A DNA stretch of 64,000 nucleotides, taken from the NCBI RefSeq assembly GCF_023721415.1, contig NZ_JAMQVC010000006.1:62001-126000 (forward strand), given 5' to 3'. A program made the translations under genes and the position numbers. Of the stretch, positions 17,148 through 19,867 are shown piece by piece. Every line of letters begins with the position of its first letter. The first letter of the stretch is position 1. The notes under the pieces were generated by a model. It saw nothing but the letters and a program-made list of their open reading frames with translations. It was not told the DNA's origin and made no database searches. The stretch comes from Galbibacter mesophilus. GTDB taxonomy: Bacteria > Bacteroidota > Bacteroidia > Flavobacteriales > Flavobacteriaceae.

Positions 17148-18188
17148 ATGGCGGAAGATATACAAGACGATTTTAATCAAGACGACGAACTTTACGAGCA
17201 TTATAGTTTTAAAGCCGGAAAGGGTCAGGAGCCCTTGCGAGTGGATAAGTTTTTAATGAACTTTATTGAAAATGCTACGCGGAATAAAATTCAGCAAGCT
17301 GCCAAAAACGGTAATATATACGTGAATGGAAAAGCTGTAAAATCCAATCATAAGGTAAAAGCAAATGATGAGGTAAAGGTATTGTTTGAGCATCCTCCAC
17401 ATGAATATTTACTAACGCCGGAAAATATCCCACTGGATATTGTTTACGAAGATGAAACCTTGTTGGTTATCAACAAGCCGGCCGGAATGGTGGTGCACCC
17501 AGGACATGGCAACTACTCTGGAACACTTATAAATGCATTAATTTACCATTTTGAAAATCTTCCATTGAACAGCAATGAACGTCCTGGTTTAGTCCATAGA
17601 ATTGATAAAGATACCAGCGGATTGCTAGTTGTTGCCAAAACGGATGAGGCTTTGGCACATCTTTCGAAACAATTTTTCAATAAAACGAGTGAACGCGAAT
17701 ATCTAGCACTAGTTTGGGGGAATATAGAAGATGAAGAAGGCAGGGTAGAGGGACACATTGCCCGCCACCCCAAAAACCGTTTGCAAATGACCGTTTTCCC
17801 AGAAGGCGACCACGGAAAAGATGCGGTAACCCATTTTAAAGTGGTGGAACGTTTTGGGTATGTTACCCTAGTTTCCTGTAAATTGGAAACGGGGAGAACG
17901 CACCAAATTCGTGTGCATATGAAATATATTGGTCATACCCTATTTAACGATGAGCGCTACGGAGGGGATAAAATTTTAAAAGGAACTTCCTTTACTAAAT
18001 ACCGCCAGTTTGTGGAAAACTGTTTTAAGGCGCTCCCAAGACAAGCACTACACGCCAAAACATTAGGTTTTGAACATCCCGTTTCGGGAGAATTCCTGCG
18101 TTTTGATTCTGAAATTCCTGAAGATATGGAGTCGTGCCTAGAAAAATGGAGAAACTACGCCAAGCATCAAGAATTTAGTGAAGAATAG
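17148..18188 (+). CDS. rluD: Pseudouridine synthase, RluD/RluC family
   Basis: A 346-residue RNA pseudouridine synthase. An S4 RNA-binding domain covers about 25-90 and the catalytic domain about 95-330, with HRIDKDTSGLL near 148-158 that holds the catalytic Asp, and GRTHQIRVH near 250-258. It probably modifies 23S rRNA. The last 114 coding bases and 72 bases beyond the stop are repeated at 18885-19070, past a small unrelated gene. This copy is complete and joined to the whole gene. Confidence 0.94.
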   Translation: MAEDIQDDFNQDDELYEHYSFKAGKGQEPLRVDKFLMNFIENATRNKIQQAAKNGNIYVNGKAVKSNHKVKANDEVKVLFEHPPHEYLLTPENIPLDIVYEDETLLVINKPAGMVVHPGHGNYSGTLINALIYHFENLPLNSNERPGLVHRIDKDTSGLLVVAKTDEALAHLSKQFFNKTSEREYLALVWGNIEDEEGRVEGHIARHPKNRLQMTVFPEGDHGKDAVTHFKVVERFGYVTLVSCKLETGRTHQIRVHMKYIGHTLFNDERYGGDKILKGTSFTKYRQFVENCFKALPRQALHAKTLGFEHPVSGEFLRFDSEIPEDMESCLEKWRNYAKHQEFSEE

Positions 18189-18260
18189 ATTTTCCCGATT
18201 TACCCATAGAAAAGAAGAAAATGTTTAGGTTTTACAAATAATGCCTTAGTTGTATATTTA
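18075..18260 (+). repeat. Direct repeat, left copy (rluD 3' end and trailer)
   Basis: This 186-bp segment and 18885-19070 align without gaps and differ at nine positions (about 95% identity). Eight differences lie in the coding part; seven are silent and one is Glu to Asp. One difference lies in the 72 non-coding bases. The pattern shows that both copies evolved as working rluD ends before being brought together. Confidence 0.95.
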
Positions 18261-18278
18261 TAGCTGGAACACATTTGA

Positions 18279-18818
18279 ATGAAAATCGGGACTGATATTA
18301 AAAATTGGAAAGAATTTTTGGAAAGAAAGTTTTCTGACAATGCAATTTTCAAGATTGAAGACAAAACATATGACTTGTCAAATGGAGTCTATACGATAAC
18401 GGCCAAAGGAAGCGAAACCAAAATAAATTTTATTTGGCCTGATAAGGATTGGCTTGCTATTGAAGATATACAATTTTACAACTCCAAAGTAAACAGTTGG
18501 TCTGGAGAATTATTGGGCGGAAATAATCCAAAACTAGGGAAGTTCAATAAAGAAAATGTTGATTTTGTGAGTCAGATCCTTGAAATACCCTTAAAAAAAG
18601 GCTGGACAAGTACTGATTATTATTTGTTTGGTAAAAATTTTAAATCGATTTCTAGGGAAGGGATGAAACCAAATCATGGCAAAAGAATATGGATTGATTA
18701 CAATTTCGGTTGTATCGGAACAATATTATTTCCATTTACAATTATTATTGATTTTGTAATAGATAAGGGTGTAATGGGAGACAAAAAAATAACTGTTGTA
18801 AAACCAATGACAGAATAA
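18279..18818 (+). CDS. Hypothetical protein in the rluD-flanked insertion
   Basis: A 179-residue protein that I do not recognise. It is mostly hydrophilic, with many Lys and Asn codons and aromatic strands (FIWPDKDWLAIEDIQFYNS), and has one hydrophobic stretch near residues 144-160 (CIGTILFPFTIIIDFVI). No catalytic motif or signal peptide is visible. It is the only gene in a 624-bp segment enclosed by two diverged copies of the rluD 3' end, and its base composition is more AT-rich than its neighbours. It was very probably gained by recombination with a related genome. A defence, immunity or membrane role would be guesswork. Confidence 0.7.
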   Translation: MKIGTDIKNWKEFLERKFSDNAIFKIEDKTYDLSNGVYTITAKGSETKINFIWPDKDWLAIEDIQFYNSKVNSWSGELLGGNNPKLGKFNKENVDFVSQILEIPLKKGWTSTDYYLFGKNFKSISREGMKPNHGKRIWIDYNFGCIGTILFPFTIIIDFVIDKGVMGDKKITVVKPMTE

Positions 18819-18884
18819 AACCAACTTCATAGTAATTTATTCCAATTTAGAGTAAAGTATTAAAATATAACTATAACATCAATG

Positions 18885-19070
18885 CATCCCGTTTCTGGGG
18901 AATTCCTGCGTTTTGATTCTGAAATTCCAGATGATATGGAGTCATGCCTTGAAAAATGGAGAAACTACGCTAAGCATCAGGAATTTAGTGAAGAATAGAT
19001 TTTCCCGATTTACCCATAGAAAAGAAGAAAATGTTTAGGTTTTACAAATAATGCCATAGTTGTATATTTA
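18885..19070 (+). pseudogene. Second rluD 3'-end fragment (right copy of the direct repeat)
   Basis: The segment encodes the last ~37 residues of RluD in frame up to a stop at the same relative place, but no start or upstream part of the gene exists. It ends exactly where the TACATTTG -7-like sequence before yaaA begins (19069-19076), while the left copy has TATAGCTG there. This suggests the right copy is the original junction with yaaA, and the upstream rluD plus the extra gene came in from elsewhere. Confidence 0.88.
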
Positions 19071-19105
19071 CATTTGGAAAAGAGAGTAATTAAAAAAATA
19101 TACAA

Positions 19106-19867
19106 TTGAAAATAGTAGTATCTCCCGCAAAATCGTTGGATTTTGAAAGCGAATTGCCCACAGAAAAATATACGGAACCTAAATTTCTAGCTGAAGCTGA
19201 AAAGTTAAATGGCGTGCTTCAAAAAAAATCGCCCAAAAAGCTTTCGGATTTAATGAGCATTTCTGAAAAGTTGGCTGATTTGAACTGGCAACGCAATCAA
19301 GATTTTACAACGCCTTTTACACCGGATAATGCCCGTCCCGCTATCTATGCTTTTAATGGTGATGTGTACACTGGATTGGATGCGTATACGCTTCCTAAGG
19401 AAAAAATAGATTTACTGCAAGAACGATTACGTATTTTAAGCGGATTGTATGGCGTATTGAAACCGTTGGATTTAATGCAGCCTTATCGCTTGGAAATGGG
19501 CACAAAATTACCAATTGGCAAGAATAAGGATTTATACGATTTCTGGAAAAAGAAAGTTACCACTGCTTTGAATGAGGAGCTGAAAGAAAATGAACTTTTT
19601 TTAAATTTGGCAAGTAACGAATATTTTGGCGCCGTAGACGAAAAGGCTTTAAAAGTTCCTGTAATTACACCTGTTTTTAAAGATTGGAAAAACGACAAAC
19701 TCAAAATCATTAGCTTTTATGCTAAAAAAGCCCGAGGTTCTATGGTGCGTTACATTATAGATAAAAATGCCAAAACGCTGGATGACCTAAAGGGATTTGA
19801 TTACGACGGCTATTCATTTAGTGAAGAACACACCAAAAAGAAAAATGAGTTGGTGTTTGTAAGATAA
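19106..19867 (+). CDS. yaaA: Peroxide stress protein YaaA family
   Basis: A 253-residue protein of the YaaA/DUF328 family, which in E. coli limits free iron and damage under hydrogen peroxide. The family start [13 protein letters not shown], the block [13 protein letters not shown] near 86-98 and the [14 protein letters not shown] block near 206-219 are clear. Length is normal. The only start that keeps the conserved first strand is TTG at 19106. A terminator follows directly and is shared with the convergent THX gene. Confidence 0.93.

Follow-up and report, generated by a model that had tools for sequence, protein, structure and literature searches.

The locus lies in a window of 64,000 nucleotides (positions 62001-126000 of contig C6) taken from a 3.77-Mb assembly of 8 contigs, hereafter G000. 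The features are listed in Table 1. An intact rluD, full length and equal in length to the rluD of the congener G005, is followed by gene X, by a second copy of the rluD 3' end and by yaaA. The two copies of the rluD end constitute a direct repeat of 186 bp per copy, in the same orientation and with a spacing of 810 bp. They differ at nine positions (18086, 18089, 18119, 18122, 18134, 18140, 18161, 18170, and 18246 in the left copy). Eight of these mismatches fall inside rluD codons, all at codon position 3; seven are silent, and the single replacement is at codon 325 (GAA to GAT, E to D). The right copy is a fragment only, the remainder of rluD being missing. When the left copy was used as a query against its own genome, it matched at two places only, both at this locus. 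The repeat coordinates confirmed that a 624-bp single-gene insert lies between two 186-bp rluD ends, as stated in the initial annotation, and the mismatch listing and codon check reproduced its count of nine differences, eight coding and seven silent.

Table 1. Features of the rluD-yaaA locus (positions within the window).
Feature	Position	Strand	Basis
rluD, intact, 346 aa, S4 and pseudouridylate synthase domains	17148..18188	+	ORF list, domain search
Left repeat copy: final 114 bp of rluD (including stop) and 72 bp of spacer	18075..18260	+	
Cassette-type leader GCTGGAACACATTTGA; core GTT reads GCT here	18263..18278	+	Leader comparison
Gene X, 179 aa	18279..18818	+	ORF list; array-borne relatives at 37-38% identity
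66 bp separating X from the right copy; attC undetected	18819..18884	+	
Right joint: unrelated DNA abuts codon 310 of the second rluD end	18884..18885	.	
Right repeat copy: rluD codons 310-346, stop and 72 bp of spacer	18885..19070	+	
Remaining yaaA upstream region, contains TACATTTG	19071..19105	+	
yaaA, 253 aa, PF03883 (E 4.3e-95)	19106..19867	+	ORF list, Pfam

Past 18260, the copies mismatch at 18261, 18263, and 18264, match at 18265-18269 (TGGAA), and then show no similarity. Because they part shortly after 18260, the left end of the insert can be placed within ~10 bases. At the right joint, the sequences differ ahead of CATCCC. The insert (18261-18884, 624 bp) contains X as its single ORF of at least 80 aa, and a 75-bp query (18810-18884) spanning the gap between X and the right copy had no other match in seven genomes of the genus. 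The right copy runs on into TACATTTG ahead of yaaA, and the left copy has TATAGCTG at that place. We take TAnnTTTG to be the -7 consensus and on this basis read TACATTTG as a yaaA promoter element, in line with the earlier statement that the right copy keeps the -7 element of yaaA.

In tyrosine-integrase islands, the gene end is typically rebuilt by the incoming DNA and a remnant is left behind. A rebuilt gene end accompanied by a remnant, as seen here, would fit the residue of such an island that had regenerated the 3' end of its target gene. However, the sole ORF of at least 80 aa in the 624 bp is no integrase, and the ends share no identical core other than the diverged repeat. We regard an island origin as very improbable.

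The divergence of the copies was quantified over 37 codons by the Nei-Gojobori method, which gave seven synonymous differences in 20.2 sites and one non-synonymous difference in 90.8 sites (dS 0.47, dN 0.011; dN/dS ~0.024). For the whole rluD of G000 and G005, the corresponding values are dS 2.11 and dN 0.053 (dN/dS ~0.025). If the right fragment had been decaying freely, at most one non-synonymous change among eight would be expected with P ~0.0013. This probability, together with the rluD-like dN/dS, makes a local duplication with free decay unlikely. The pattern thus supports the view that a functional rluD constrained both ends while they diverged, which would most simply have happened in two related genomes, much closer to each other than G000 is to G005. 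The proposal that the copies come from two related genomes and not from a local duplication is upheld by a dN/dS as between the rluD genes of species, and silent divergence through mutation after a local duplication is disfavoured at the same P. No close relative, donor, or empty sister strain of G000 was found among the genomes searched.

The direction of change could be polarised at four codons. The majority of the six congeners backs the left copy at codons 314, 325, 338, and 341 (4/6, 6/6, 4/6, and 4/6, respectively), and since it sides with the left copy at all four polarisable sites, the right copy looks derived there. Four of four changes on the right copy is slightly uneven for symmetric divergence, and the sites are nearly saturated. 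A local tandem duplication followed by mutation would be consistent with this unevenness and with the position of the copies, 810 bp apart in the same orientation; the single non-synonymous change against seven synonymous ones, the absence of differences at codon positions 1 and 2, and the P value given above all argue against it, and its probability appears close to negligible. The derived state of the right copy does not tell which copy is native. The suggestion that the left rluD and the extra gene are the newcomers is not borne out, as the polarised sites leave the native copy undecided.

The spacer parts of the copies differ at 1 of 72 sites. This is below the prediction from the coding part, but not significantly so (P 0.13), with the spacer rate estimated from G000 and G005 (51 of 71 sites identical, ~0.17 of the synonymous rate). 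A mosaic reading, based on one spacer difference in 72 sites against eight coding differences, was dropped because of this P value with the estimated rate.

We compared the rluD-yaaA junction over six congeners. In four of them (G001, G002, G003, and G005), no ORF of 90 aa occurs from rluD to yaaA. The junction of G004 holds one other ORF (243 aa) and that of G006 two (115 and 217 aa). The place is thus empty in four congeners and occupied by other ORFs in two, and X is not a gene found here in all relatives. A single rluD end precedes yaaA at this place in all six, which speaks against a history in which X formerly lay between two functional rluD genes of full length, the second of which later lost its 5' part. 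Such a history would likewise leave differences at third positions only, but it requires a duplication, long retention, and a deletion, and we consider it improbable. No repeat of at least 30 bp was present around the junction in the five congeners examined (all but G005), and no attC-like match at E 0.5 or better was obtained in the six junction loci. As to the initial idea of an insertion hotspot, four of the six congeners have an empty junction, and the other ORFs of the remaining two come with neither an rluD repeat of 30 bp nor an attC. The rluD end as a variable site receives mild support at most, and the hotspot idea is weak.

Matches to X were found in 7 of 397 family genomes, counting its own genome and one weak match. 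At order level and, with alignment A1, at phylum level, 1 of 395 genomes matched in each case, namely its own. The four closest relatives share 37-38% identity with X; G005 and G034 have one each and G260, in whose genus two of four genomes gave matches, has two. Each of these four is a single gene flanked by two attC-like sites of ~130 nt, and the one in G005 lies in an array ~0.96 Mb from rluD-yaaA. The relatives in G216 (28% identity, at a locus without an attC match) and G355 stand away from detectable attC sites, so that an array origin of X is not forced. The G355 relative stands alone (L022:533-1048, minus strand), with a GTTAGCAAATATTTGA leader (15/16), GCTAACAAC at its stop, and no attC match; a nearby ORF is presumably ssb. 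Searches for X gave no match in phages, no confirmed relative in viral contigs, and one match in plasmids (28.9%, Persicobacter).

X gave nothing over the cut-off in Pfam and no match in NCBIfam. Structure prediction of the 179-residue protein, which the initial annotation had suggested, was carried out from six sequences and yielded a model with a mean pLDDT of 81.1. The model predicts an alpha/beta part and, over a hydrophobic stretch of sequence at 146-162, C-terminal helices. No fold in the PDB matched it at E 0.001 (best E 0.085). The residues W10, S75-G76-E77, and G108-W109 are identical across the six aligned X proteins. The intact frame of X suggests a maintained or recent gene.

G000 carries an array system of its own. 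On contig C4, an integrase of 376 aa is followed ~40 bp on by the first cassette, and the array, downstream of this tyrosine recombinase and co-directional with it, reaches the contig end. Integrase and array lie in C4:262497-267358 (L041:18498-19628, L042), and further array pieces lie in L058-L060. The recombinase sits directly after a 372-aa ORF that we take to be 3-isopropylmalate dehydrogenase. Contigs C2 and C3 also carry attC-like sites, each near one of its ends, and C4 carries more near its opposite end. Further sites in G000, at C1:456114, 720634, and 951585 and at C3:121850-127131, are possibly other stray cassettes. Further along the G005 array, the cassette immediately preceding the X relative shares 89.6% identity over 718 bp with the first cassette of G000, compared with 81% identity for rluD between the two genomes, implying that cassettes travel between these species.

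The array integrase of G005 is of the same kind and 70% identical to that of G000. Both match TIGR02249 (integron integrases) below the cut-off, and the G005 enzyme narrowly passes the NF040815 cut-off (221.4 bits against 220). In phmmer searches, both integrases hit XerA first and IntI4 third. The stretch that separates the aligned parts, where the IntI-specific additional domain lies, measures 61 residues in IntI4 (183-243) and 18 in the G005 integrase. In the array integrases at L018:12839-13963 (minus strand), L041:18498-19628, and L032:1237-2343, similarity to recombinases begins ~90 residues in. The additional domain of IntI is named as a defining feature in a section of PMC9668308.

The attC-like sites were searched with a covariance model (R1) built from 25 such sites and containing 12 predicted base pairs. 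The 25 sites were picked by eye from 54 candidates of a script that demanded AACA and CGTT[AG] at the site ends; the others, some of them clearly false, were dropped. R1 was scanned on genomes within the phylum only. It recovers four attC-like sites of the G000 array that were outside the training set (E 3e-20 to 0.008). At E 1e-6, R1 matched 254 of 299 family genomes, which represent 207 of 236 genera, as well as 35 of 118 genomes of the phylum sample, 8 of them Flavobacteriaceae, with strong matches also in families f22 and f38. Since few candidates were scored per genome, the per-genome R1 counts are lower bounds; in G260, with 150 candidates scored, 141 attC-like sites reached E 0.001. Rfam gave no match at E 0.1 in L042, L019, and L060 and none at the gathering score in the window.

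In all four array-borne relatives of X, the 16 bases ahead of the start are GTTAGCAAACATTTGA. The X leader, GCTGGAACACATTTGA, is identical to these at 12 of 16 positions, with equal spacing to the start codon. This match ranks first among the 73 window ORFs of at least 100 aa (next best, 10), and of the 6070 window start codons two reach 12/16 or more, X and one with 13. Leader profiles were built from 45 leaders with GTT and from 43 leaders, 39 of them distinct, without GTT. With GTT, X is 13th of 127,968 window positions (12 score above it). Without GTT, 16 of 127,970 window positions, X included, score as well as X, and 1 of 66 ORFs outscores it. In a check for the GTTRRRY core at X, where the leader is again first of the 73 ORFs at 12/16, the core reads GCT and not GTT. 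The homology of the copies stops at 18260 (18269 counting TGGAA) and the leader begins at 18263, so that the left insert end looks like the 5' end of a cassette. TGGAA at 18265-18269 is common to both copies and blurs this boundary.

After X, no attC was detected by R1, the best plus-strand match near the gene end having an E of only 1.1, and X is therefore not a complete cassette. A candidate attC remnant, ATAACATC..CCGTT at 18871-18897, is not claimed at this E value; the stretch folds no better than its shuffles, 195 of 200 of which are at least as stable. A minus-strand match at 18243-18346 (13.7 bits; E 0.0047 in a 1.1-kb scan, E 0.9 in a wider scan) covers model positions 17-111 only. 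It was taken as chance because both outer boxes are missing and because it overlaps the leader and the start of X.

We favour the interpretation, at about an even chance, that X is an integron-cassette-type gene that left its array, joined near rluD, and was traded between related genomes. The integron-cassette type of X had been overlooked in the initial annotation. The observed parts of this account are the repeat, the constrained coding divergence of its copies, the relatives in cassette arrays, the leader match, and the lack of a detectable attC. In a related genome, the X cassette would have settled just downstream of rluD, with the cassette 5' end (~18263) attached to the rluD-yaaA spacer. 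Part of this donor DNA would then have recombined with the present lineage. Homology in rluD presumably anchored one side, and the other side would have joined without homology within a diverged second rluD end, at 114 bp from the end of that gene (stop included). The attC expected after X would thereby have been lost, and a copy of the target region would now occupy that position. This would leave rluD intact, the yaaA upstream region whole, and gene X probably beyond excision by the integrase. We infer both the order of these events and the enzyme, and favour a homology-facilitated illegitimate join for the right joint.

This account is favoured by the four X relatives that lie between attC-like sites in three genomes (G005, G260 twice, and G034), by the array integrase and cassette arrays present in G000 itself, and by the empty place in four of six congeners. 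It is disfavoured by the GCT core, the missing attC, the TGGAA overlap, the location of all four polarised changes on the right copy, the one ORF and one start codon that outscore the X leader, and the 1/72 differences in the spacer.

The same layout might have arisen by plain homology-facilitated illegitimate recombination, with X unconnected with cassettes. One homologous and one non-homologous side correspond to the signature proposed in the accessible portion of PMC5361080. A gene without cassette ancestry is disfavoured by the array-borne X relatives and by the fixed spacing at which the leader matches, and we consider this origin unlikely. Alternatively, both joints could have been made by the array integrase, through an attG-like insertion and an aberrant attC R''-upstream target crossover, with DNA of a related strain as the partner. 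The target-ORF-delta-target architecture and the cassette-like 5' end at the left joint are consistent with this, as are CCGTT 4 bases inside the right copy and ATAACATCA, which stops 3 bases short of the joint; a crossover is proposed likewise for attI-ORF-delta-attI cassettes in an extract of PMC12901181. However, the R''/R' likeness seen at the right joint is no better than chance (E 1.1), the left core is GCT in place of GTT, and the divergence of the copies is unexplained by an integrase alone, so that a second genome is still required. Formation of both joints by the integrase thus has a small but real probability.

If the favoured account of an escaped and exchanged cassette is true, the locus records a cassette that left its array, was fixed beside a housekeeping gene, and was exchanged between related genomes, and it marks a path by which mobile cassettes can become stable genes of the chromosome. 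Analysis of the X locus also led us to cassette arrays in many Flavobacteriaceae genomes. We tentatively suggest, with somewhat less than even confidence, that this family possesses a near family-wide integron-like system, consisting of attC-like arrays and a tyrosine recombinase that lacks the additional domain usual in IntI, and that this system also drops cassettes at ordinary chromosomal sites; X would be an escaped cassette, fixed because a target copy replaced its attC. For Bacteroidetes, a survey (PMC9024848) lists, in the part of its text at hand, only In0, known from previous studies, and a single complete integron of Salinibacter ruber, and excerpts of two other papers count Bacteroidota among the integron-bearing phyla and give no further detail (PMC8618304, PMC9668308). 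No literature on Flavobacteriaceae cassette arrays was found among titles and abstract openings, in a search that had most subscription journals outside its range.

Cassette insertion at genomic attG sites was reportedly described by Loot et al. in 2024. X resembles such insertions as a cassette-type gene outside an array, in a genome that owns an array. It differs from them in having no detected attC and a GCT core, and the G005 array integrase is much shorter at the extra residues of IntI4. The excerpted text of PMC12901181 describes attI-ORF-delta-attI cassettes, including one whose attI2 copy extends to position -238, and suggests that they arose by a crossover of attI1 L with attC R''. 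As in those cassettes, X lies between two target copies, the downstream copy takes the place of attC, and the left joint resembles a cassette 5' end. In contrast to them, the copies at X are diverged and the target is a chromosomal spacer with the rluD end; it is no attI site, and the array integrase lies elsewhere, on contig C4. For T6SS immunity arrays and modules, a portion of PMC5361080 proposes homology on one side and an illegitimate join on the other. Although the present locus has a housekeeping target and a cassette-type gene, no effector module, and an anchor that is not visible, it would share with these arrays a homologous anchor on one side, a non-homologous join on the other, and an old 3' end left in place.
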